Of a DNA stretch of 64,000 bases, positions 3,955 through 62,278 are shown piece after piece. The DNA comes from a virus. Position 1 is the first letter of the stretch. Every line of letters begins with the position of its first letter. Where the stretch lies: positions 62,001-126,000 of IMG/VR virus record IMGVR_UViG_3300047170_000049, one strand, 5' to 3'. A model generated the notes under the pieces. It saw only the letters and a program-made list of their open reading frames with translations, was not told the DNA's origin and made no database searches. Made by a program: the position numbers and the translations under genes.

Positions 3955-4818
3955 TTATCTTGGTCCTACGTTGCCGCCAGTAGGGGCATTGATTTCGGCG
4001 TCGGGTACGTCTTTCTCCGTGCGATTACCTAGGAAAATGTAATCGGCTTGAACTTGAGCTTGCATTGGCATTTTCTGCATTGAGTAATCGCCAGTGTAAG
4101 CGTTCATCTGTGGGAAGATACGGATTTCGTGCATCATCTGCTTGACGTAAAAATAAGGCTTATATTTGTAACGAACAGAAATTAGTTTGGGTTGGTCACT
4201 TGTGTTATTCCAACCAGGTTGTTTACCACCAGGAATCCACGCAATGTGTCCTTGAGCGTCGATATTGAAATCTTGGCCTTCGGTATAGAACTTACCATCG
4301 GAGTCGGTGACATATTCAATTTCTGAAATTTGGAATTGAGTGCGGTCAATGCCAGTCATCGAGTGGGTGACTTTTTCAAAGTTAGAATGGAAGAATTCTG
4401 CGGGGCATTCGCAAGGAATTAACTTATCGTATTCAGTAAACGATGCAAGTTTGGTCGTGCCCTTGTAGTAGCGATTAAATGTGAGCATCGCACTAGAGCT
4501 ACCGTAGAAACCTGCAGGGATGTATGCTAGTTGTTTAGAGTTGTTTGTAAACACTCCCCAAACTTGTCCAGCGCACATATAAACAAATCCATTTTCACAG
4601 TGAGCGGTGGCGTTGCCATCGAAATCGTGATTATGGGAATGACGAATGTCACCATCAGTAACTTGGCCTAAGACGCAAGGGATTGCCTTGTAGTGCCAGA
4701 ATAATACACCATTTTGAATTAAGAAATTATCTTGACCAATGGAATCGACGGTGACCGCGTTCCAAGGTTCTTCATAATTAATTAATACAGCATTTACCGC
4801 TGGTTTTACATCGGCCAT
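3955..4818 (-). CDS. Putative virion structural protein
   Basis: 287 aa, beta-rich, with many aromatic residues and a Gly/Pro tail; no signal peptide. A His-rich stretch (RHSHNHDFDG, about residues 59-68) and several Cys could bind metal. It is 3 nt after the 214-aa gene and in the same unit. Composition and position suggest a baseplate, head or fibre-associated component, but I do not recognise the family. Confidence 0.6.
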   Translation of the reverse strand: MADVKPAVNAVLINYEEPWNAVTVDSIGQDNFLIQNGVLFWHYKAIPCVLGQVTDGDIRHSHNHDFDGNATAHCENGFVYMCAGQVWGVFTNNSKQLAYIPAGFYGSSSAMLTFNRYYKGTTKLASFTEYDKLIPCECPAEFFHSNFEKVTHSMTGIDRTQFQISEIEYVTDSDGKFYTEGQDFNIDAQGHIAWIPGGKQPGWNNTSDQPKLISVRYKYKPYFYVKQMMHEIRIFPQMNAYTGDYSMQKMPMQAQVQADYIFLGNRTEKDVPDAEINAPTGGNVGPR

Positions 4819-4821
4819 TTA

Positions 4822-5466
4822 TTACTCCCAGAAATTTCCAGGCAAGTGCCCTTTGGGTACGTTTTTATTTTTCATACGGTAATCATCTTCCAATTTTGAA
4901 CCATGGAAAGGCTGAGGTTCATTGAAGTAGACTTTACCATCGGGGCCTTGTTCTTTGTTGTACATATGTTGAGCACCAAAGGCTTCATGGGCTTGTTGTG
5001 GATTCATGCCTGCCATTTGATAGTGCTTAATTGCTTCGTTCTTATGATACTCACCAGCCAAGTGATTATTAATATCTTTACCTTGGTCGTAGTTATCTTT
5101 ATGGAAGTTTGAAAAGTGAGCGTGCCAATTAGCAATTTTCTTATGGTTCTCAGGAGTGGAGGCGTGTGGCATGGAGCGAAGCTCTGCATCGTGCTGTATG
5201 GACGAGACGTTGCCCCATTGTGGGTTGAATTGCCTATCGGTAGACTTGTAAAGATTCTCGTGCCAGCTAATACCGTTTTGAACCTTATCCGCCATACCCT
5301 TGGCAACGGCACGGTGAGCGGCTTGTCCTAGGACTCTTAGTTCGCCTGAAGCTTTCTTCAAGGCCATAATGTTTAATCCACCCTTGGTACGGATGTGATA
5401 AATAGGGTCGGTCTTGTAAACGCCGACTTGTTCCATAGTGTGAATGTCTTGTTTGTTTAAATTCAT
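4822..5466 (-). CDS. Unknown hydrophilic protein of the late region
   Basis: 214 aa, very rich in His, Asn, Gln and Lys, like the two large enzymes encoded just upstream (714 and 692 aa). First gene after a late-type promoter motif (5487-5514). No membrane segment. The shared composition suggests a co-packaged, injected protein; this is inference. Confidence 0.6.
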   Translation of the reverse strand: MNLNKQDIHTMEQVGVYKTDPIYHIRTKGGLNIMALKKASGELRVLGQAAHRAVAKGMADKVQNGISWHENLYKSTDRQFNPQWGNVSSIQHDAELRSMPHASTPENHKKIANWHAHFSNFHKDNYDQGKDINNHLAGEYHKNEAIKHYQMAGMNPQQAHEAFGAQHMYNKEQGPDGKVYFNEPQPFHGSKLEDDYRMKNKNVPKGHLPGNFWE

Positions 5467-5486
5467 ATTTTCCCCTAAAGGACTAT

Positions 5487-5514
5487 AATTAAGATTTTAG
5501 GTTAACCCTTTGAT
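5487..5514 (-). promoter_or_regulatory. Late-type promoter motif L2
   Basis: Minus strand reads CAAAGGGTTAACC then TAAAATCTTAATT, nearly identical to L1 over 26 positions. It overlaps the stop codon of the upstream 714-aa gene and lies 20-48 nt before the ATG at 5466. Confidence 0.65.
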
Positions 5515-7646
5515 TTTATTGCATCTTTGACGGCTGGAATACCCCATACCCAAATAGAATTAATCAATGAATCAGGGTATTTAGACTGTTTTACCAATTC
5601 TTTGATTTCTTCTAGACGGTATAGTTCAGGGCTTGGGTCTAACTTATATTTAAACATAAGTTCTTTGATGAGGTTTGGGTCTAGACGTAGAATCCAGTCG
5701 CGAAGTTCTTCTGCGACCTTGGGATTTCTAATACGAGGTAGGCCCTGGAACTTAGTTTCATTATTAGAGTTTTGCTTAACGTCATTTTCTACGCGCAAGA
5801 TGTATGGGATGAAGATGTCCGTGTCTTTAGAAGGGTCGAAGGCAAGATTGGCAAAAGAAGACCCGTGGTCAATCATTTGCAAGCCCTTGCCGTTTGTCAT
5901 GACATTACCGCCATGAGAATCAGCTTCGCCTAGGATGTAGAACATGGTGGCTATTTTATGGACAACACCTTCACGGGTGAGTTCGCCAATGAGTGCCTTG
6001 AATTCATGTTCGTCATCTTTTTCAAGGTCTTGCGCTATCTTGTAATCGTCGGGTAGCATTTTGATTGCTACGGCATAGTGAGGCTTACCATCTTTTTGGA
6101 TTTCACCCATAACTGAATGTGGAATGTAATCAACCAAACCAAACACACTATGGGCTAGTTTATAGAAACAGGCTTCTTTAATGAATTGAGGGCCAGTATC
6201 TTTTAAAGACTTAACACCAGGCTTATTCTTAGGTTCGAGTTTTAAGAGCCATGAGTCTTTAGGTTCGTCGCCGACGATAAAGGAATCTGTGGTGAAATGG
6301 CCATAGTGACTTAGGTCATGAATCTTCTCGTCACGGATTAGCGAATTGATATTTTGTGTTGCTACTATGGAGTAATCATCTTGAGTCAGTGGCTTAAAGA
6401 ATTTAATGCCAGCAAACTTTTGTTCAATCTTTTCTAGAAGACCTTCTTCTTTAAGGAAGGAGTCCAGGCTCGAACCTAGATGTTTATTTTCGTTCTTTGT
6501 CATCTTAGGTTTAGCATCGGCAACTTCACCGTAATTATGTATGTTGCCTTTTGCATCACGTTGTGGTTTAGTCTGAAACTTCAGATTTTTAGAGTTGATA
6601 TTGAAACTTGCAGTGGGATGGCCAACAACAATTTCATTTTCATGCGAATGGGGATGTTCTTGGCCTTGGACGGTCATGTGATGACCAGAGTGAAGGACTT
6701 GTTTCAGTGGCACCCATTTGGACATTACCACCCCATGATTATCTGGTTGACCTTCAATATGCCCACGATTATATGCGAACCTCGCTGCCATTTCTGGGTC
6801 CGTTGTCCACGACGTTAAGTGTGCTGTGGGTAATTTTATTTTTTTATCGTCAACCTCGTTAGTTTCGGGGTTATGACCTACTGCATCTTTAATTGCTTTG
6901 CCATAATGCCCACCGACCCCACGATAAAGTTTGACATGAGGCTCACCATGAAAATAACGTTTAGGTGTGAATTTATCTTGCATTATTTCAGCTTGAACTT
7001 TTTTAGCGTACTCATCTAGGTGAGGAAGAACATCAGAGGCTTGCATGAATTTATTGGGGTACTCAAATTTAGTATTTTTTAAATGTTCTAAGGTTTCTTT
7101 GTCATGACCCATCAATCCATCAGGGTTGAGATAAGCTTCGTGACTATTGGCAGATTCGCCACGGTGGTCCGTTACCGTTTCAGGTTGACCCGTGAAATGA
7201 GACTTAATGGTCGCGAAATGACCAGGGCTAACCGCTCTTTCGTAGCTGGACCAAAAATTCCCAACCTTCTTCATGTTTGCCAAGGCTTCATCGGGCGCAA
7301 ATTTGGGATGGGTTTGTATTGCGTTGGTGACGTACTGGTCTTCACGACCTTCGTGACCCACACGCCTTAGTGTGGCAGCATCAGCATGCTTAGGGATGTG
7401 TCCAGCGTATTCAAATAGAAACGAATTGAGATTATCTTTTTGATTAGGACGAGTCTTAAGATGGTCTAGGACTTTGTGAACTGCAGCATTAGGCATACCT
7501 TCGCCGCCGTCATTGGGATTATTGGCCGAAGGAAGGCGCTGCCAAATGTCGTAGTTAGCTGGCACACGTTTAGCATGCTCAATGGCTTTATCCCAGTCAC
7601 CACGATGGATGGCTTCAAAAGTTGCTTTCTCATTTGAGTCAGACAT
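5502..7646 (-). CDS. ADP-ribosyltransferase plus kinase-like fold, probable injected effector
   Basis: 714 aa, hydrophilic and His/Asn-rich. Residues 235-350 carry the three landmarks of R-S-E type ADP-ribosyltransferases: LYRG (R242), HLTSWTTD (S279) and HENEIV (E336-x-E338). Residues about 410-630 look like a small protein/lipid kinase-type fold (HipA or PI3/4-kinase-like): a lysine in WLLKLEP (K469), a helix Glu, ADSHGGN (D576-N581) as catalytic loop, and MIDHGSSF (D593) as metal-binding Asp. The first 230 residues are unassigned. Such transferases in phages (T4 Alt is the classic case) ride in the head and modify host proteins on entry. It overlaps the 692-aa enzyme gene by 1 nt. The targets are unknown and the kinase assignment is less certain than the transferase. 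Confidence 0.8.
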   Translation of the reverse strand: MSDSNEKATFEAIHRGDWDKAIEHAKRVPANYDIWQRLPSANNPNDGGEGMPNAAVHKVLDHLKTRPNQKDNLNSFLFEYAGHIPKHADAATLRRVGHEGREDQYVTNAIQTHPKFAPDEALANMKKVGNFWSSYERAVSPGHFATIKSHFTGQPETVTDHRGESANSHEAYLNPDGLMGHDKETLEHLKNTKFEYPNKFMQASDVLPHLDEYAKKVQAEIMQDKFTPKRYFHGEPHVKLYRGVGGHYGKAIKDAVGHNPETNEVDDKKIKLPTAHLTSWTTDPEMAARFAYNRGHIEGQPDNHGVVMSKWVPLKQVLHSGHHMTVQGQEHPHSHENEIVVGHPTASFNINSKNLKFQTKPQRDAKGNIHNYGEVADAKPKMTKNENKHLGSSLDSFLKEEGLLEKIEQKFAGIKFFKPLTQDDYSIVATQNINSLIRDEKIHDLSHYGHFTTDSFIVGDEPKDSWLLKLEPKNKPGVKSLKDTGPQFIKEACFYKLAHSVFGLVDYIPHSVMGEIQKDGKPHYAVAIKMLPDDYKIAQDLEKDDEHEFKALIGELTREGVVHKIATMFYILGEADSHGGNVMTNGKGLQMIDHGSSFANLAFDPSKDTDIFIPYILRVENDVKQNSNNETKFQGLPRIRNPKVAEELRDWILRLDPNLIKELMFKYKLDPSPELYRLEEIKELVKQSKYPDSLINSIWVWGIPAVKDAIKSKG

Positions 7647-9724
7647 TATTTATCCCAGTTGTGCGTCGCGTTCATCATAACGTGCTTATCGTCAATAAGT
7701 ACGTCTTGTGCAGGTTTAACATCATGCTTCTCGTTTTTAACTGAAGCAGGTGAACGTTCGGCGTTCATTGCAAAGTTGCCTAATTTCTTAAATTTGTTAA
7801 ATTTTACCACATAAGGATGGTTCTTGATTTCATCGGGGGTAGCATCAAGTGCGTGGGTAATCCCATTGTACCAAGCGTAAGCCGCTTTATCATGGTCGTT
7901 ACCAAAGCGGTTTAAAAGCCTATGCCAATGGGCATGGACTAATTGCTCTTCCATTTTCTTATTTCCTAAAACCAACTTGGAAATTTTCTCTTGGTCCATC
8001 TTAGGGTCCATTGAGCCAAGTTCAGGATAGAGCTTTTTAATGTGGGGATTCTTCTGGGCAGTCTCAACAATAGTAATAGGCATAAGGCCGTAAGAGCCTA
8101 TGGCTTTCGTGCCAGTGTTGATGCCGTGTACAACTTCAGCGTGCTTTAAATTTTTACCGTTAGAAGATTCAATATTCTTGATGGCATCTAAATCGCCCTT
8201 GGCAGTGTCAACTACTTGGATACCAGGCTGACTCTTATCTTGGCTACTTAAAGCCGTAGGAGCGCCGAGCATTGACATTGCCGTGATAACGTTCATAGCT
8301 TTTGTCTTCATGTTCTTATCCAACCCTTCTGATAAAAGTGTATCATAAGGCTGGCTTAAAGTCTCTATTTTGCTTATTTCCGTATTTTTCCTAACGTTTT
8401 CAATGGCTTTGAGCTTATCTTTTTTAGTAAGCTCCGCTTTCTTAGTGTCTTCAGTGGCTAAAGCCCAGTCAGGAAGCAAACCAGCTTTCTGGTCAGCGTA
8501 AATTGTTTGCGCGGGGTTAGCTCTATTGTGCGCTGCGTGCTTACCAAAGTTAACCCATGAGTTCTGGCCGCGTGTTTCTGAGGTCAGGGCCTTTTGTGCT
8601 TGAGGTGAATACATCTGCTTATGGCTAAGGTATGCGTTCTCTTCGCCTTTGGGACCAAATCCATAACCTTCTTTAGCGTGGCCAAAATAATCGTGGACTA
8701 TACGGAAGAGGTCGTTAGCGGGTAAGTCTTCGCCATTATGAATAACGCCTGAAGGTTTGAGCATTGGGTGATTGGAGTATAGTGAATCTCCAGAACCAAA
8801 ACCTTGTTCGGTAGGGTAGTACCACATATGATTGTTTTGGCGAACGTCTTGGAGCATATCTTTAGATGATTTATAGGGATTAGCCATGTCTGGTCTAATC
8901 TTACTGATTTTTAAACCAGCATTTTTAATGTGATGAAATTGTTCTGCCGTTTCATTGATTAGTGCATTGTAGGCACGTTTAGTTTCAGGATGGTCAGGGG
9001 TGTGGGGCATGGCTTCGTAGGCCGCTGCAATGTTCTTAGCACGAGGCACGTTGACTTCTGCTTGGGTGTCTGGATGATTTAAAGTCAAACCTTTCGACTT
9101 GGCGTAATTGTTAGCGACGCTTCTAATTTTAATATCGGGTTGAGTTGGGGTAGGTGGCTTGAACGCATCTGCCTTGCGAAGGTTACGGTACTCAATCTCG
9201 CCCTTGGCCATCTTATAGCCATTGGCATTAGGCTGCTTGTCAGACCAAAGGACTTTATCTTCTTTCCAAAGCTCTAATGGCTTAACCTTGACGTTTAATT
9301 TGTGTTGGGGCATTCCCGCTTGGACTTTATCCCAAAGGTCCTTATCCACCGTTATATGAGGCTGGAACGTGGGAAATTTATCTGGGCCATAATGGTCTTG
9401 AAGCTTCTTGTTGGCTTCTTCCATATGTTTGATACCAGGGCCTACGAGCTTAAGGACGTGCCATGTCTTACCTTCTGGGGTATTAAACTTATGGGGCACT
9501 AGCTGGAATTGGTCAGGAGGGGTTGTATTGAGTTGATTTAGGTGGTGTTCCATTTGCTTCACGTCGGGCTCATGGGCTCCTAAGTTTCTTAGGGTGACGT
9601 GGTACTTACCGCCATTTTCTGGATTGATAGCTTGGCCGTTGATATGAACGGGCCACATCAAATAGTGCTCTTTCCACGCTGGGTCTTGCGCTTTTACATT
9701 TGAAACACTAGTCTTCGTGGGCAT
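7646..9724 (-). CDS. 2H phosphoesterase + unknown HDYFGHA domain + lytic transglycosylase
   Basis: 692 aa. N-terminal domain (about 35-155) has the paired H-x-T motifs of 2H phosphoesterases, YHVT (H42) and PHIT (H123), about 80 residues apart. The middle domain (about 270-420) contains HDYFGHA (344-350), ENAYLSHKQMYS and TRGQNSW, rich in possible metal ligands; I do not recognise it. A hydrophobic stretch at about 476-495 precedes a C-terminal soluble lytic transglycosylase-like domain: IESSNGKN (E519), GSYGLMPI, and AYAWYNG. The phage may use it to breach peptidoglycan during entry and to hydrolyse a cyclic or 2'-5' nucleotide in the cell. First gene after late-type motif L3. Confidence 0.8.
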   Translation of the reverse strand: MPTKTSVSNVKAQDPAWKEHYLMWPVHINGQAINPENGGKYHVTLRNLGAHEPDVKQMEHHLNQLNTTPPDQFQLVPHKFNTPEGKTWHVLKLVGPGIKHMEEANKKLQDHYGPDKFPTFQPHITVDKDLWDKVQAGMPQHKLNVKVKPLELWKEDKVLWSDKQPNANGYKMAKGEIEYRNLRKADAFKPPTPTQPDIKIRSVANNYAKSKGLTLNHPDTQAEVNVPRAKNIAAAYEAMPHTPDHPETKRAYNALINETAEQFHHIKNAGLKISKIRPDMANPYKSSKDMLQDVRQNNHMWYYPTEQGFGSGDSLYSNHPMLKPSGVIHNGEDLPANDLFRIVHDYFGHAKEGYGFGPKGEENAYLSHKQMYSPQAQKALTSETRGQNSWVNFGKHAAHNRANPAQTIYADQKAGLLPDWALATEDTKKAELTKKDKLKAIENVRKNTEISKIETLSQPYDTLLSEGLDKNMKTKAMNVITAMSMLGAPTALSSQDKSQPGIQVVDTAKGDLDAIKNIESSNGKNLKHAEVVHGINTGTKAIGSYGLMPITIVETAQKNPHIKKLYPELGSMDPKMDQEKISKLVLGNKKMEEQLVHAHWHRLLNRFGNDHDKAAYAWYNGITHALDATPDEIKNHPYVVKFNKFKKLGNFAMNAERSPASVKNEKHDVKPAQDVLIDDKHVMMNATHNWDK

Positions 9725-10088: not shown

Positions 10089-10697
10089 ATGGCTAAGGTG
10101 GTTAATTTATATAGTTCTTTTGGTTTTTGGACTGAAAACTCTGCGCGATTCCCAAATTTACTTCATAGGTTGGGAATTGAAGTAAACCCAGGACGTTCGT
10201 TAACTTTCAACAAAACATTAGAAGAAATGGAAGCGATTGCAAATGAGCTTGGCTTTACCCCACTTCCAATAGTTCAAGTGGCCTATGGTGATAAAATGCC
10301 ACAAGAAGAGATGGGTAAAATTATTATGGAAGGCAAGTGTGCAGTTGATTTAATCTACTCACACGATTGGGTTAGCCATCTGTTTGCATACTTATTGATG
10401 ACGCCTAAACTTAAACATAACTTACAAGACTTGGTGGTAAATCTACCTCCAGATGGGAAATCTTCCGAATTAACAAAGCAAACCTCTGTTTTTGATGTGC
10501 TTACCGCATTATCAATAACGGAATTATCTACCCAAAAAAATGATGAGGATTTTGCAAAATTTGTTAAATATGCTTTAGAGGCATACGGGGGTGCAAAAGT
10601 TCACATTGAGAATGTGGGTGGATTCGTACACAATTTCAAAGAAGCTAGGGAGAAGGTTTACGAGGTGGAGAATTTTCTAGCGCAGAAAGCCGCTTAG
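10089..10697 (+). CDS. Unknown 202-aa protein
   Basis: Starts 6 nt after the previous gene with GAGGTCGT as ribosome site. Mixed alpha/beta, acidic, soluble, no membrane segment. Its end overlaps the end of the convergent 302-aa gene by 4 nt and no terminator hairpin is present there. No recognisable motif. Confidence 0.7.
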   Translation: MAKVVNLYSSFGFWTENSARFPNLLHRLGIEVNPGRSLTFNKTLEEMEAIANELGFTPLPIVQVAYGDKMPQEEMGKIIMEGKCAVDLIYSHDWVSHLFAYLLMTPKLKHNLQDLVVNLPPDGKSSELTKQTSVFDVLTALSITELSTQKNDEDFAKFVKYALEAYGGAKVHIENVGGFVHNFKEAREKVYEVENFLAQKAA

Positions 10698-11602
10698 AAA
10701 TTAGTCATGTAGACTTTTTTGCCCCACATTGCCTTTAGAACGTCCATGATGCTTTCACGCTTGGCTTCCAATTCTTGTGCGCGTAACGCATAGATTTGAT
10801 TACCAGGACCGCTAACGCCTTGGCTAATACCGTCAATACCAATACTTTGAGAGTTGAAACGATAGAGAGGGCCAAGCATGGATAGAACATCTAATGCAGC
10901 GGTGACGCCGATGATGTCATTAATGATTCCAGGGACCGCATTTTCTTCAAACCCGAATGTAGCGCGTATGTAGAAAAATGAGGGAATCCACTGGAGTCTT
11001 GAGAAGACCGCGAATAATGCAGCGGCAGGTCCTGAAGACGCACCAGCTACGATACCCGTGGAATTGAATGTGGTTTGCAAAGGAACTAAGTGGAGTAGAC
11101 CACGGTCAGCATAGGTTAAATCAACCCACTCTAATGGGAATTGATAAAACACCGTACCATCAGTGTCGATGTTACCAGCTTCATTTGAAATATATTGGCC
11201 GTTGATTGTTTGAGCACTATTAACGGCTCGAATAGATACTTCTTCTAGAGAGTACATATTCTTAAAGCCCATATCTAATTGGTTGTAACCTTGAAGATAC
11301 TTTGTGCGGTCGAAATCTTTACGAATGGTACGTTGAACTTGTGTAATATCAACCTTGCATTCAGTTTCAACGCGTGACGTAGCACGGGCTAGTAAATCTT
11401 TTAAAGTGTCATCGTCGAGAACTTGCTTAGTGTAAGGGTGGACCAAGGGGATGCCGAATAGAAATTGCTTTTTAAATTTGTCAACGGAAAGCATAGGCTC
11501 AACACGAGCATAGCCAGCGGTTCCATTCTCACCGTTAAACTTTGAGACTTTTTGTGGAAATCCACCAAATGTATTTTTCTTTGAATTACTATAATCAGCC
11601 AT
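10694..11602 (-). CDS. Putative head or neck structural protein
   Basis: 302 aa. The N-terminal half has LDDDTLKDLLARATSRVE, resembling the helix-rich start of phage head-completion/adaptor proteins that recognise sheets of a connector; the rest is beta-rich with hydrophobic patches (AALFAVFSRLQWIPSFFYI). It lies downstream of the 49-aa and 135-aa genes and overlaps the former by 8 nt. Assignment as virion protein is likely; exact role is not established. Confidence 0.6.
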   Translation of the reverse strand: MADYSNSKKNTFGGFPQKVSKFNGENGTAGYARVEPMLSVDKFKKQFLFGIPLVHPYTKQVLDDDTLKDLLARATSRVETECKVDITQVQRTIRKDFDRTKYLQGYNQLDMGFKNMYSLEEVSIRAVNSAQTINGQYISNEAGNIDTDGTVFYQFPLEWVDLTYADRGLLHLVPLQTTFNSTGIVAGASSGPAAALFAVFSRLQWIPSFFYIRATFGFEENAVPGIINDIIGVTAALDVLSMLGPLYRFNSQSIGIDGISQGVSGPGNQIYALRAQELEAKRESIMDVLKAMWGKKVYMTNF

Positions 11603-38463: not shown

Positions 38464-40278
38464 ATGTATAAACAACACGTCAAGGCTAAAACAGCCGCAA
38501 AATCCATTACTTATGAAGGCTCACAACTCAAACACATCGTTCTAGACACTCTGCAAAGAGCTAGTAAGTTGGTTGGTTCAACACTTGGACCAAATGGAAA
38601 ACTCGTATTAATTGAAAGACAAGAAGACATGCCACCTTTCGTTACGAAAGATGGTATTACCGTTTTCAACTCCATGGCCTTCACTAATTCGACGGCCCAG
38701 GCCGTATTAGAAGCGGCACGCGATAGTAGTAGTAAAACGAATGTAGAGGCAGGAGATGGAACCACTACAGCTACTATCCTTGCCGCTGGCCTGATAAAAC
38801 ATGGTTTTGACTTCCTAGGGCAGAATCCTAGGCTTTCAACCCAGAAAGTAATGCGTGAGCTTGAGCAAGCCTACGAAGAGCTTATAGTGCCCTTCGTGCG
38901 CGATAATGCACTTAAGATTACTAACGAGAACTCACAAGACCTTTTAAAGAAGGTAGCCCTTATCTCAACCAATAATGACGCTGATATGGCCAAGGCCGTG
39001 ACCGATTGCTTCGCACAAGTAGGCCACAACGGTAACGTGACTATTGTTGAAGCTACTGGTTCTGGAGGCTTTGAAGTTGAGAAGATTGAAGGCTTACCTA
39101 TCGCCCGTGGGTTTGAAGACTCATGCGGTCGTTTCGTAGAAGAATTCATTAATGACCGTGGGCATTATCGAACGATGTTGGATAAACCTAAGTTCATTCT
39201 TTACAATGGTCGCTTAAATGACATAACTCCTTTAATTCCCGTATTAGATAAGATTGGTCAAGCAGCTTACCCTGTAGATGAAACTGGTCGTATTATCGTG
39301 GACGCTCAACGCTTTAATGAAAATATCGTATTAGTTGCACATGACTTTAGCGAACGCGTATTAGCCGTATTAGCTCAAAACTTCCGTAACCCTGGAACTA
39401 TTAATGTAGTTCCTCTAAAGACTCCAATGTCAATGCAGACTAATTCTCAGTCCCACTTCCTACAAGACGTGGCGGCTTTCGTAGGGGCTAAAGTGTTTGA
39501 CCCACTCTCTAACCCTTTAGAGAATGCACAACTTGCAGACCTTGGCTTAGAGACAATGCACTCATTTGAATTCAACCGTTATAAGTCAACCATCTTAGGT
39601 GACCCCGATGAGCTTCTAATCATTGCCCGTAGCGAAGAGCTTCAAATCCAATCTCAAAACGCAGCTTCTTCTATGGACAAGGAACTCTTCAATGAGCGTC
39701 AAGCCCTACTTACAGGTGGTATTGCCCGACTTAAAGTCATGGGCTCATCTGAAGCTGAACTTAAAGAGAAGCGTCACCGTGTGGAAGATGCAGTATGTGC
39801 AATCAAAGGTGCGCTTAAAGACGGTGTTCTCCCTGGATGTGCTAAGACCCTTATCTCTCTAAGACAACAAATCAAGGGTAGTGAATATTCTCCAGCGGTT
39901 AAGTACATCATGCGTAACGCATTCATTGAACCCTTCTATAGAATCTTTGCTAATGCAGAAATTCCAACTGAAGAGGTCCATGAGATTTTTAATGACGTTA
40001 TGAAAGACCAGCAATTCATGACCACCTACGATGCCCTCAATTCTAAAGTTGGAAATGCAATTGAACTAGGTATTATTGACTCAGCCTCAGCCGTATTATG
40101 CGCAATCAAAAATAGTCTATCGGTCGCTAAAATGTTAATGGGACTTAGCGGGATTGTGGTATTTAGTAGAGATATGGAAACTGAGATTGATAACGCCAAA
40201 ACTCTCACCGCTGAAGAGCGTGCAATCCAAGAAGCAGTTGCTCAACGCGAAAAAGAAGATTACGAACCGAGGTCATAA
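38464..40278 (+). CDS. GroEL-like chaperonin
   Basis: 604 aa versus about 548 for bacterial GroEL. Nucleotide site AGDGTTTA (D98) and LGPNGK are intact, as is the ELKEKRHRVEDA block with the hydrolysis-linked Asp. The usual PGGG near the C-terminal equatorial domain is PGCA, and the GGM-repeat tail is replaced by a charged end EKEDYEPRS. The apical domain is divergent, so substrate and co-chaperonin specificity probably changed. It works with the GroES-like protein at 32511-32792. Likely folds capsid or other phage proteins. Confidence 0.95.
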   Translation: MYKQHVKAKTAAKSITYEGSQLKHIVLDTLQRASKLVGSTLGPNGKLVLIERQEDMPPFVTKDGITVFNSMAFTNSTAQAVLEAARDSSSKTNVEAGDGTTTATILAAGLIKHGFDFLGQNPRLSTQKVMRELEQAYEELIVPFVRDNALKITNENSQDLLKKVALISTNNDADMAKAVTDCFAQVGHNGNVTIVEATGSGGFEVEKIEGLPIARGFEDSCGRFVEEFINDRGHYRTMLDKPKFILYNGRLNDITPLIPVLDKIGQAAYPVDETGRIIVDAQRFNENIVLVAHDFSERVLAVLAQNFRNPGTINVVPLKTPMSMQTNSQSHFLQDVAAFVGAKVFDPLSNPLENAQLADLGLETMHSFEFNRYKSTILGDPDELLIIARSEELQIQSQNAASSMDKELFNERQALLTGGIARLKVMGSSEAELKEKRHRVEDAVCAIKGALKDGVLPGCAKTLISLRQQIKGSEYSPAVKYIMRNAFIEPFYRIFANAEIPTEEVHEIFNDVMKDQQFMTTYDALNSKVGNAIELGIIDSASAVLCAIKNSLSVAKMLMGLSGIVVFSRDMETEIDNAKTLTAEERAIQEAVAQREKEDYEPRS

Positions 40279-48892: not shown

Positions 48893-51800
48893 ATGAATTT
48901 CAAACCAATCGTACCCCCTCATACACACCCCCTTAGCCTTGATTCTGGCAACTCAGTTAAGCAATTTATCAAAGCCTCAGCTAAGACATTTGGTCATAAG
49001 GCCATTGCTATTACTGACCACGGCACCATGGGTGCAATCATTGAGGCTTACGAATACTCTAAAGAACTTAAGAAGAAAGAAGGCTTGGATATTACAATCA
49101 TTCCAGGCATAGAACTCTACCTGAAGCCTGATGAGACAGACCCCACACGCGACCGTCGTAACGGTAAGCCCGTATCCTACTACCACGTCACATGCCATTT
49201 TAATAACTTCCAATCATACCTCAAGTGCTGTGAACTCACTAAGAAGGGGTATGAACGTGGTCTATGGAAAGGGTCCGAGTATAAGCCTCTCATCACATGG
49301 GACGAGCTTGAATCCCTATCGGGCCAAGTTACGCTCTTCTCGTCATGTCTAATTGGCGCGGTTCTCGGCCCCTGGATTAACGGCTCCAAAGAACAATCTG
49401 AACAGAACTTTGTTCGTTTAAAAAACATTGCTGGTCCCGAAAAATTTTTTGTAGAAATCTTCCCATACGAAGTATCCAAGGACTGGGACAAAAAAGACAT
49501 GGTATTCAAAACCAAGCCCTCGTCTTGCGATTGCCCTAATGGAATGATGCAAGTTGGTGCCAATGAATGGGTAATGCACCTAGCTGAGAAATACAACGTT
49601 CCAATGGTCGCGTCGGAAGATGCCCACTACGCCAACCCTGATGATAAAGCCATTCAAGATGCTCGACTCTCTAACGGTAAAGAACAATGGAAAATGGCTG
49701 ATGTTAACTGTCTGCACACTTCCGATTGGCTCTTCGCAGAGTTTAACCGCCTCCACATCGGAAAATTTTCAGAATCTCAATTTCAAGAAATTATTGAAAA
49801 CTCTTATAAGTTTGCTGACCAATCTAAGGGGTTTAGTCCACATTTTAAACCGGCACTGCCGTTATACCCACTTGAGCTTGAAGCTGGAATGAATGAAGAT
49901 AATCAACAAGCCAAGCACGTTGTTAACTTAATTCAAAAGAAAGGCCGTGTTGACTTCTCTAATGATATTTACCGTAACCGTTTAAATAAAGAGCTTAAAG
50001 AACTAGCCTTTAATGGCAAAATCAATATCCTGCCCTACTTCTTAACACTTCATACCGTTATTGAGCACTGTGAAAAGAATAACATCTTGGTAGGCCCTGG
50101 ACGGGGCTCTGCCGCTGGGTCTCTACTTGCATACGGTCTGGGCATTACTAACGTTGACCCTATTAAAGAAGACCTTAGTTTTGAGCGTTTCTTTGACGTT
50201 ACTCGTGTTGAAGAGGGTCTAGCCGATATTGATACGGACTTTAGCGACCGCGATGCGGTCATTGAATTCGCTAAGAAGGAATGGGGTGACCGTTTTGCCT
50301 ACATTGGAGTCGCCCAGAAGTTCAAAACCAAGATGGCACTCAAAGACATTGATAGATTTTTGAATGGCGAAGTTTCTAAGCTCACGGAAGACGTGGCAAA
50401 ATCAGTTGGTAACTCACCCCAAGGCGTTGACGAAGAGCGATTCTTGAACGGATATACTGACCAAGACGGCAATACTGTAGACGGCGAACTCGACACCAAC
50501 CCCAAACTACTTCGCTACCTACAAGAACACCCTAAAAATGCAGCGTTGCTATTCAAGATGATTGGTATTACCCGTCAAATGGGCCGTCATGCGTGTGGGG
50601 TTATCATAGCAGACCGCCCTGTCCATGAGTTTATCCCCCTAATGAAGGTTAAAGGCGAGCTTATCACCCAGCTTACCCCCGAATGGGTCCAGAAGTGTGG
50701 TGGCGTTAAGTACGACTTCCTAGGTCTAAACACGCTTTTAGACGTGCAAAAGTGTGTACGTCTTATCAAGGAACGCACTGGGAAGGTGATTGACCCATGG
50801 AAAATTGAAGACACTCCTGAAATCTGGGAAGCGGCAGCTAATAACCCTTCGACTATTTTCCAGTTACATACGCAAACGGTCCGTCATGGTTTACAGACTA
50901 TGCGTCCTAAGAATGTTACTGAAGGCGCTATCCTTACATCAATCTTTCGACCAGGCGCTACAGATGCCGTTTCAGATGAAGACCCTAATAAGACCATGGC
51001 AGATATATTCTTAGAGCGTTGGACTGGTCAGCGTGAGACTAAGTATATTCACCCAGACCTTATTCCTTACTTGTCTGTCACCAAGGGTGTTATCACTTGG
51101 CAAGAACAAATTATGAAAATAGTCCATGAACTCGGTGGGTTAACTATGGTTGAGACTCAAAAGGTTCGTAAGTCTATTTCTAAGAAAGTTTCAGATGACC
51201 TGATTAACTCACTGAACAAGGTTGAGAAACATTTGGTTGAGGTGCGGGGCTGGACTAAAGAACAGGCTAACTCCTTGACTTCACAGATGAAAGCTTCAGG
51301 CCGTTACTCGTTCAATAAATCCCACGCTATTTCCTATATTTACATTGCGCGTGCGTGCGCATATTTGAAGTACCACTACCCATTGGAATGGTGGACTGCC
51401 GTATTATCTAATGCTGATAAAGAAGACTTAAAAGGCTACTGGAAGCATGTGTCTAAGTTTGTTCGCTTCCCTGATGTCAATAAGTCCAACGATTCCTTTG
51501 AGATTTCTAGCGAAGGTGGTGTAGAGTTTATTAGAGCGCCCTTGAGCCTACTGGAAGGCATTGGAGCGGCTGCCCTAGCTGAGATAACGTCTAAGCGTCC
51601 GTTTGTGGATTTTAGAGACTTTATCACGCGAATTGACCGTAGGGTAATTAACAAGCGTGCCGTGGCTAACCTTATTTTCAGTAATTCTTTAGATTCGCTA
51701 TTTACTACGGATAGGACCGACGAAGAAAAATATGCTGAATATTTGAATCTAAGGGCTGAGATTGCTGGCACTACCCGTGAAGCCTTCCCCCAGGAGTACA

Positions 51801-52279
51801 TGAATTTAACCCCATTAAAACGCTATCTACTTAAGAAGACTATATTAACTGTATATAGTGACGACTTATTTGACATAGCCCTGCCAAAATTAATTGCAGA
51901 AAAAATGGTCGAGATTGACCAAAATGGGATATATAAGTATTTGGATACGAGTGGAAAGTTTACGATTGCCAATAGCAATACGTTTAAAATTTTCACCGAT
52001 GCCAACAATCCAGCGGAGGCTAACTTTGCCGTGATTGGAATGATTCAAGATGAGAAGGAATTCATCTATCAAAAGACTAAGAAGGCATTGAAGCTTTCAG
52101 TTGAGTTGGATGACTTGACGTTTGAGACGGTTAAGTGGCCTAAGTGGGGCTCAGACCATCACGATGAAGAAAAGGTTAAGAACACTATTTGCGTTTTAAT
52201 TCTGAACCGCAAAGGTGGAACTGGCAGAGATAAGGTTTTTGTTAAAAAGATTATTCCAATAGAAAGAGGAATCGAATGA
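48893..52279 (+). CDS. dnaE: DNA polymerase III alpha subunit (DnaE type)
   Basis: 1128 aa, close to bacterial DnaE length. N-terminal PHP domain keeps metal ligands (HTHPLS, ITDHGT, PGIELY, EDAHYANP). Palm: GPGRGSAAGSL, ADIDTDF with D445, D447, D449, and KYDFLGL (D608), so all catalytic aspartates are present. Fingers and tandem HhH follow (LEGIGAAALAEI). It replicates the phage genome. No beta-clamp, tau or epsilon gene is visible in the window, so it may use host subunits. Confidence 0.96.
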   Translation: MNFKPIVPPHTHPLSLDSGNSVKQFIKASAKTFGHKAIAITDHGTMGAIIEAYEYSKELKKKEGLDITIIPGIELYLKPDETDPTRDRRNGKPVSYYHVTCHFNNFQSYLKCCELTKKGYERGLWKGSEYKPLITWDELESLSGQVTLFSSCLIGAVLGPWINGSKEQSEQNFVRLKNIAGPEKFFVEIFPYEVSKDWDKKDMVFKTKPSSCDCPNGMMQVGANEWVMHLAEKYNVPMVASEDAHYANPDDKAIQDARLSNGKEQWKMADVNCLHTSDWLFAEFNRLHIGKFSESQFQEIIENSYKFADQSKGFSPHFKPALPLYPLELEAGMNEDNQQAKHVVNLIQKKGRVDFSNDIYRNRLNKELKELAFNGKINILPYFLTLHTVIEHCEKNNILVGPGRGSAAGSLLAYGLGITNVDPIKEDLSFERFFDVTRVEEGLADIDTDFSDRDAVIEFAKKEWGDRFAYIGVAQKFKTKMALKDIDRFLNGEVSKLTEDVAKSVGNSPQGVDEERFLNGYTDQDGNTVDGELDTNPKLLRYLQEHPKNAALLFKMIGITRQMGRHACGVIIADRPVHEFIPLMKVKGELITQLTPEWVQKCGGVKYDFLGLNTLLDVQKCVRLIKERTGKVIDPWKIEDTPEIWEAAANNPSTIFQLHTQTVRHGLQTMRPKNVTEGAILTSIFRPGATDAVSDEDPNKTMADIFLERWTGQRETKYIHPDLIPYLSVTKGVITWQEQIMKIVHELGGLTMVETQKVRKSISKKVSDDLINSLNKVEKHLVEVRGWTKEQANSLTSQMKASGRYSFNKSHAISYIYIARACAYLKYHYPLEWWTAVLSNADKEDLKGYWKHVSKFVRFPDVNKSNDSFEISSEGGVEFIRAPLSLLEGIGAAALAEITSKRPFVDFRDFITRIDRRVINKRAVANLIFSNSLDSLFTTDRTDEEKYAEYLNLRAEIAGTTREAFPQEYMNLTPLKRYLLKKTILTVYSDDLFDIALPKLIAEKMVEIDQNGIYKYLDTSGKFTIANSNTFKIFTDANNPAEANFAVIGMIQDEKEFIYQKTKKALKLSVELDDLTFETVKWPKWGSDHHDEEKVKNTICVLILNRKGGTGRDKVFVKKIIPIERGIE

Positions 52280-61678: not shown

Positions 61679-62278
61679 ATGGCTAGAGTGCCGACTGATG
61701 ATTTAGAACGGCTGATGCACCACAATGTTCATGTGGCTACTAAGACTATTTACATGGGTAGCGAAGAAGTGGACATTGATGGTAATGAGTCTGGTACGGA
61801 CGCTGCTATGGCTGCACGGATGATTAAAGCCCTGCATCATTTGGACTCTGCTACGGACCCTGAAAAACCCATCACCATTATCATGAATAACTTAGGCGGC
61901 GACGTTCAACATGGTATGGCTATTTACGATGCCATCAAAGCTTGTAAGAGTGAAGTAATTATTAAAGTCTTTGGCCACGCAATGTCCATGGGCTCAATCA
62001 TTCTCCAGGCTGCCGATAAGCGGGTTATGTCACCTAATTCTAAAGTCATGATTCACTACGGCACTGATGGAGCTTATGGCCACCCAAAGATTGCTCAACG
62101 CTGGATGGATGAAGCCAAGAAGTACAACAAATGGATGCTAGAGCTTTACCTAGAAAAAATTAGAGAGAAGCACCCAGACTTTACCAAGAAGCAAATAGAT
62201 AAGTTACTGGATTTTGACACTATTTACAGCGCCAATAAAGCTGTGGAAATGGGATTAGCCGATGAAGTTCTTGAGTAG
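61679..62278 (+). CDS. ClpP-like serine protease
   Basis: 199 aa from ATG 61679 (AGGTAAG upstream); the longer upstream frame overlaps the previous gene. ClpP pattern: NLGGDVQHGMAIYD, GHAMSMGS (S103), MIHYGTD (H126) and DFDTIYSANKAVEMGLADEV with the catalytic Asp equivalent. A full ClpP fold without a propeptide. Being in the replication region it is not the prohead protease; it may degrade host or phage proteins with an AAA+ partner. Confidence 0.9.
   Translation: MARVPTDDLERLMHHNVHVATKTIYMGSEEVDIDGNESGTDAAMAARMIKALHHLDSATDPEKPITIIMNNLGGDVQHGMAIYDAIKACKSEVIIKVFGHAMSMGSIILQAADKRVMSPNSKVMIHYGTDGAYGHPKIAQRWMDEAKKYNKWMLELYLEKIREKHPDFTKKQIDKLLDFDTIYSANKAVEMGLADEVLE

Follow-up and report, generated by a model that had tools for sequence, protein, structure and literature searches.

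The window analysed here is a stretch of 64,000 nucleotides (positions 62,001 to 126,000) from the 159,288-base IMG/VR virus record IMGVR_UViG_3300047170_000049, which belongs to an uncultured large phage. Its subject is an intact open reading frame (ORF) of 714 amino acids (aa) at 5502-7646, with an ATG start at 7646. A first-pass annotation made from the letters alone had read this protein as an ADP-ribosyltransferase (ART) joined to a kinase-like fold in a phage late region, naming R242, S279 and E336/E338 as a transferase triad and K469, DSHGGN and MIDHG as a kinase set. A direct residue check found R242, S279, E336, E338, K469, D576, H578, N581 and D593 all at their named positions; the strand, minus, is added here. 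Our results suggest that the protein is probably a virion-associated polyvalent dual effector, with an ART and a PI4K-II-like kinase on one chain. Its features and those of the neighbouring genes are collected in Table 1.

Table 1. Features of the ART-kinase gene and of the genes around it (window coordinates)
Feature	Position	Strand	Evidence or remark
ART-kinase polyvalent protein, 714 aa	5502..7646	-	open frame; full-length homologues, 39-44% identity
N-terminal all-helical repeat-like region, residues 1-155	7182..7646	-	AlphaFold model of residues 1-365; conserved in L009, L011, L012
Predicted R-S-ExE ADP-ribosyltransferase domain, residues 228-362	6561..6965	-	conservation, model, fold match, profiles
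R242, ART strand-1 arginine, KLYRGVG	6921..6923	-	invariant; predicted strand 235-244
S279, LTSWTTD, ART S-T-S-like motif	6810..6812	-	invariant; predicted strand 277-281
E336-N337-E338, ART ExE motif	6633..6641	-	both glutamates invariant; predicted strand 335-342
Predicted PI4K-II/PI3K-like kinase domain with N-terminal extension, residues 385-714	5505..6494	-	AlphaFold, PDB match, family alignment
K469, ATP-binding lysine	6240..6242	-	at least 90% conserved in kinase alignment; predicted strand 466-470
E491, helix-C glutamate	6174..6176	-	invariant in kinase alignment; predicted helix 487-500
D576-S-H-G-G-N581, catalytic loop	5904..5921	-	D576 and N581 invariant in 27 loci; aligns with PI3K delta DRHSDN
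D593-H-G (MIDHG), DFG-equivalent metal-binding motif	5862..5870	-	D593 invariant in 27 loci; aligns with PI3K delta DFG
Small 214-aa gene, function unassigned	4822..5466	-	homologues in 15 loci, often directly downstream of kinase gene
Virion structural protein-like gene (phrog_1004)	3955..4818	-	E 4.4e-06; downstream of kinase gene in 24/29 related loci, some misses being truncated loci
Second polyvalent protein, upstream neighbour	7646..9724	-	2H phosphoesterase-like, phrog_3170-like, lysozyme/transglycosylase-like end
Tail/adaptor-like gene (phrog_772), upstream cassette boundary	10694..11602	-	upstream, same strand, in 20/29 related loci, some misses being truncated loci

Searched against 50,697 phage records, the window protein had a single match, to Myxococcus phage Mx1, through its C-terminal half and to a gene annotated 'kinase'. 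A direct search of viral contigs and phages likewise returned nothing besides Mx1. The distant relatives came through a two-member kinase alignment, which led to five viral contigs, and a seven-member alignment, which led to 29 loci, some of them repeats; one further kinase locus lies on a metagenome-assembled genome contig labelled Saccharibacteria. The whole ART-plus-kinase length is shared with four loci, L009, the near-identical L010/L011, and L012. In three full-length relatives every ART and kinase residue that was checked is invariant, E491 included. A frameshift or chance fusion of the two halves was considered and is ruled out, because three independent full-length relatives keep the same domain order.

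The C-terminal half strongly supports the earlier reading of a kinase-like fold, and the model predicts that the fold is of PI4K-II/PI3K-like type. The AlphaFold model of residues 385-714 has a predicted local distance difference test score (pLDDT) of 90.7 and a predicted template modelling score of 0.89. In it K469 belongs to a strand and E491 to the next helix, and D576-N581 lie in a loop preceding the D593-H-G turn. Structure prediction and fold search had been proposed as the check on this half, and Foldseek against the PDB put type II PI4-kinases first (PI4KII, E 4.7e-06, probability 1.00) and PI3-kinases next, with moderate TM-scores of at most 0.51. The outcome named beforehand as speaking against the reading, a fold unlike either enzyme class, thus did not arise for the kinase half. 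The kinase set first seen in one sequence is kept across an alignment of 27 divergent loci: E491, D576, N581 and D593 never vary, and K469 and H578 reach at least 90% conservation. In sequence profiles all seven kinase members tested matched PF00454 (best 4.2e-10). The window kinase lies under the curated cut-off of that family (13.6 against 27.1 bits), and is above the cut-off in no other family either, while the Mx1 relative exceeds it with 34.4 bits. Membership of Kinase-PolyVal was also considered and is ruled out, as the PF18762 profile matched none of eight genomes (0/8) at E<=1.

The substrate of such a kinase may be a small molecule (a nucleotide, a lipid or an ADP-ribose-type signal) and not a protein, with the whole chain aimed at signalling by NAD and nucleotides, perhaps to counter a host defence based on NAD. 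The nearest folds are those of lipid kinases, methylthioribose kinase was also among the PDB matches of the model, and neighbouring domains, NUDIX and 2H, act on nucleotides. However, the HipA_C and Fam20C protein kinases also matched the kinase members, more weakly than PF00454 and with HipA_C below threshold, and a substrate is not decided by fold alone. We consider a small-molecule kinase unlikely.

The ART reading of the middle domain, residues 228-362, is supported well but indirectly. R242, S279, E336 and E338 are invariant in the window, L009, L011 and L012. In the AlphaFold model of residues 1-365 (pLDDT 72) the ART part mostly scores about 75-90, dropping in a loop at 323-335, and each of the three motifs falls on a strand (Table 1). 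R, S and ExE on successive strands in this order are expected of the R-S-E transferase fold. A BFVD fold search gave a protein of Bacillus phage SP-15 as best match (E 8e-05), and its top ten included two named phage ARTs with weak scores. The SP-15 genome yielded a single ORF with a length of exactly 469 aa, which we took to be this protein, and the ORF has YLFRGM, SSFSYS and DEAEVVLL in order. In the structural check proposed for this half, the motif residues are on the expected strands and the BFVD matches are supportive, but a PDB search with residues 1-365, taken up below, said little about the ART fold.

Profiles point the same way. A second ART-like subfamily (B: L004, L008, L013 and L014) is homologous to the window ART (hhalign probability 96%), and its hidden Markov model (HMM) also matches the window protein. 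A combined profile of the window ART and subfamily B ranked T4 ModB first and T4 ModA second of 174 phage ORFs, with modest P values of 0.0029 and 0.025. When the subfamily B profile was run against the window's own record nothing matched, an insensitive scan because the window ART is present there yet went unmatched. A third ART-like set (L003, L024 and L029) aligns weakly with the window ART (17%) and was treated separately. A three-part pattern (R-G, then S-x-[ST] with A..F, then ExE plus hydrophobics) occurred in one of the 76 window ORFs of at least 100 aa, the window protein, and in one of 15,200 shuffled ORFs; these counts are supportive and no independent test, because the pattern was devised after the sequences had been seen.

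The late-region location seen in the first-pass annotation is borne out. The gene lies on the same strand as those for the terminase large subunit, portal, head maturation protease and major head protein, and is flanked by the tail/adaptor-like and virion structural-like genes, a position between structural-type genes that is kept in most relatives. The product of the small gene at 4822-5466 is possibly a partner or chaperone. Among related loci the neighbouring polyvalent domains include NUDIX, GNAT, ART-PolyVal, SAM-lyase-like and ParB-like types, a setting that agrees with published accounts of injected polyvalent proteins (PMC5512222, PMC9503650). The lysozyme-like domain at the end of the neighbour gene 7646-9724 is found between ART and kinase on one chain in L009, L011 and L012, which suggests that the two window genes act together. 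The phrog_3170-like domain of that neighbour reaches 47% identity with phage proteins whose annotations vary between lysin, RelA/SpoT and large polyvalent protein. Elsewhere in the window, 38464-40278 (+) encodes a GroEL-like phage chaperonin and 48893-52279 (+) a large DNA polymerase (phrog_405).

All loci were scanned with seed HMMs for their domain architecture. In almost every locus the product of the last polyvalent gene ends in the kinase, and what precedes it varies: NUDIX, GNAT, ParB-like, lysozyme-like, HEAT-like and SAM-lyase-like domains and four ART types. In the 29 related loci this gene mostly belongs to the head/neck cluster. An ART is on the same chain as the kinase in 10 of 30 loci, the window counted. 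A tree of the kinases puts the window into one clade with L008, L009, L011 and L012 (100/100 support), and each of the five chains includes an ART. S-adenosylmethionine (SAM) lyase-like domains (PF23780, below threshold) lie in L008 (residues 232-324 of ORF 4320-8918), L009 (4954-6180) and L012 (3160-5154), which suggests an anti-restriction role for these polyvalent cassettes. L004 (3116-8669) and L014 (2628-8705) have three or four kinase domains in adjoining genes together with at least one subfamily B ART domain.

A constant kinase beside changing partners (ART subfamilies, GNAT, NUDIX, lysozyme-like) is also what a shared control part would look like. The kinase would then phosphorylate its own chain or its partners, silencing the ART and neighbouring effectors in the producing cell and releasing them after injection. 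This picture also fits L014-L016, L019, L027 and L028, where the kinase is encoded next door in a gene of its own (about 430-450 aa). However, several loci have two or three kinase domains, and others combine the kinase with HEAT-like repeats and NUDIX and have no recognised toxic partner. A kinase with this controlling role seems quite improbable.

The reading we favour is that of a particle-borne effector with two enzymes. The protein would be synthesised together with the virion proteins and would probably travel in the particle. The helical region at its N terminus probably acts as a scaffold or serves in packaging. Next on the chain would come a mono-ADP-ribosyltransferase of the R-S-ExE, general T4 Mod type, using host NAD to modify host protein; nucleic acid is a less likely target. 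At the C terminus an active kinase of PI4K-II/PI3K-like fold would phosphorylate a second host target. If the chain enters with the DNA, two host modifications would be made at the start of infection. These activities, the packaging, the injection and the targets are what we infer for the window protein. More tentatively, in this lineage of large phages an unreported PI4K-II-like kinase might form the constant core of particle-borne effectors with exchangeable ARTs and other enzymes, phosphorylation either gating these linked, toxin-like enzymes or adding a second host modification on delivery.

Several observations weigh against the two-enzyme effector. The glycine-rich loop of the window kinase reads GHFTTDS, and the GKHSKGT usual in its relatives is absent. 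Pfam and PDB profile searches of the ART half gave no match, and no protein family database names the domain. The PDB fold search with residues 1-365 had no ART in its 50 best matches; it is uninformative on this point because N-terminal helical repeats dominate the matches, as TPR-like repeats with weak E-values. T4 Alt, the packaged prototype, ranked only 41st of 174 with the combined ART profile, and a profile comparison with it gave no significant match. Neither injection nor a host target is evident from the window sequence, and virion proteomics is given neither in the Mx1 genome report (PMC10720576) nor, as far as is known, for the window's phage.

Two further alternatives draw on these points. 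The missing family matches and the weak PDB fold result would fit a middle domain that is no ART, its R-S-E pattern being a coincidence in an unrelated beta domain. Yet Pfam also found nothing for T4 ModA and no relevant match for T4 ModB. PF03496 matched none of seven records, SP-15 among them; since SP-15 went unmatched though its best-match protein carries the motifs, the family is so narrow that its absence does not speak against an ART. The order of the motifs, their place on the strands, their invariance, the fold match to an SP-15 protein that has them too, homology to subfamily B and the ModB/ModA ranking all argue for an ART, and a coincidence seems very unlikely. It could also be that both domains are late enzymes that take over the host or mature the virion within the producing cell and do not enter a new one, since a late-cluster position alone is no proof of packaging. 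However, the conserved place between structural genes and the lysozyme-like domains on the same chains fit particle proteins better, and packaging has been argued for comparable polyvalent proteins (PMC5512222). We find an exclusively intracellular role doubtful and retain the virion-associated effector as the better account.

The closest described class is that of the polyvalent proteins of phages, which join unrelated enzymatic domains on one chain among late virion genes, with ART, 2H, GNAT and lysozyme domains and kinases in their repertoire, and for which packaging and injection have been argued (Iyer et al. 2017, PMC5512222). The window protein shares with them the several unrelated enzyme domains, the late-gene location and a repertoire swapped between relatives. 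In contrast, their kinase is Kinase-PolyVal and the window's is not, and their prototype ART has an H-Y-D motif where the window's has R-S-ExE (PMC5512222). ARTs are over-represented in myoviruses and in the vicinity of head genes (PMC9503650).

T4 ModA and ModB resemble the window ART in R-S-ExE order and flanking pattern, but are stand-alone proteins without a kinase. T4 Alt is carried in the particle, according to its annotation, and does not score with the combined ART profile. Sinorhizobium phage phiM12 gp169 (AGR47801, phrog_27460) has RYLFRGM / SWTTDQKIAERF / EEFEV and shares SWTTDxxxAxRF with the window ART; it is unannotated, has no fused kinase, and is significantly similar over about 45 residues only. 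This 167-aa protein (L054 2288-2791) resembles an ART encoded on its own and is a relative of the window domain. Type II PI4-kinases, PI3-kinases and HipA have in common with the window kinase the fold and the catalytic D..H..N and D-x-G motifs, whereas the phage kinase domain is of about 250-300 aa and fused to other effectors.

The literature already describes polyvalent proteins containing ARTs and ones containing other kinases. The pairing of an ART with a PI4K-like kinase appears to be an unreported variant, no report of such a fusion in phages having been found in the open-access literature. A delivered ART (T4 Alt) and a phage kinase (T7) are known separately, and the window chain unites predicted domains for both activities. 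In about 30 phages a lipid-kinase-like domain is the fixed partner of changing effectors. Of these the Mx1 'kinase' WNM70334 (OR576727) has a homologous C-terminal kinase (25.7% identity, 4e-14) in the same gene neighbourhood, with an N-terminal GNAT where the window has its ART, and an ART-PolyVal domain in the gene next to the kinase, together with NUDIX and GNAT. Mx1 has a long contractile tail (PMC10720576), and as a cultivated relative, growing on Myxococcus xanthus, it opens packaging, substrates and phenotype to direct test.
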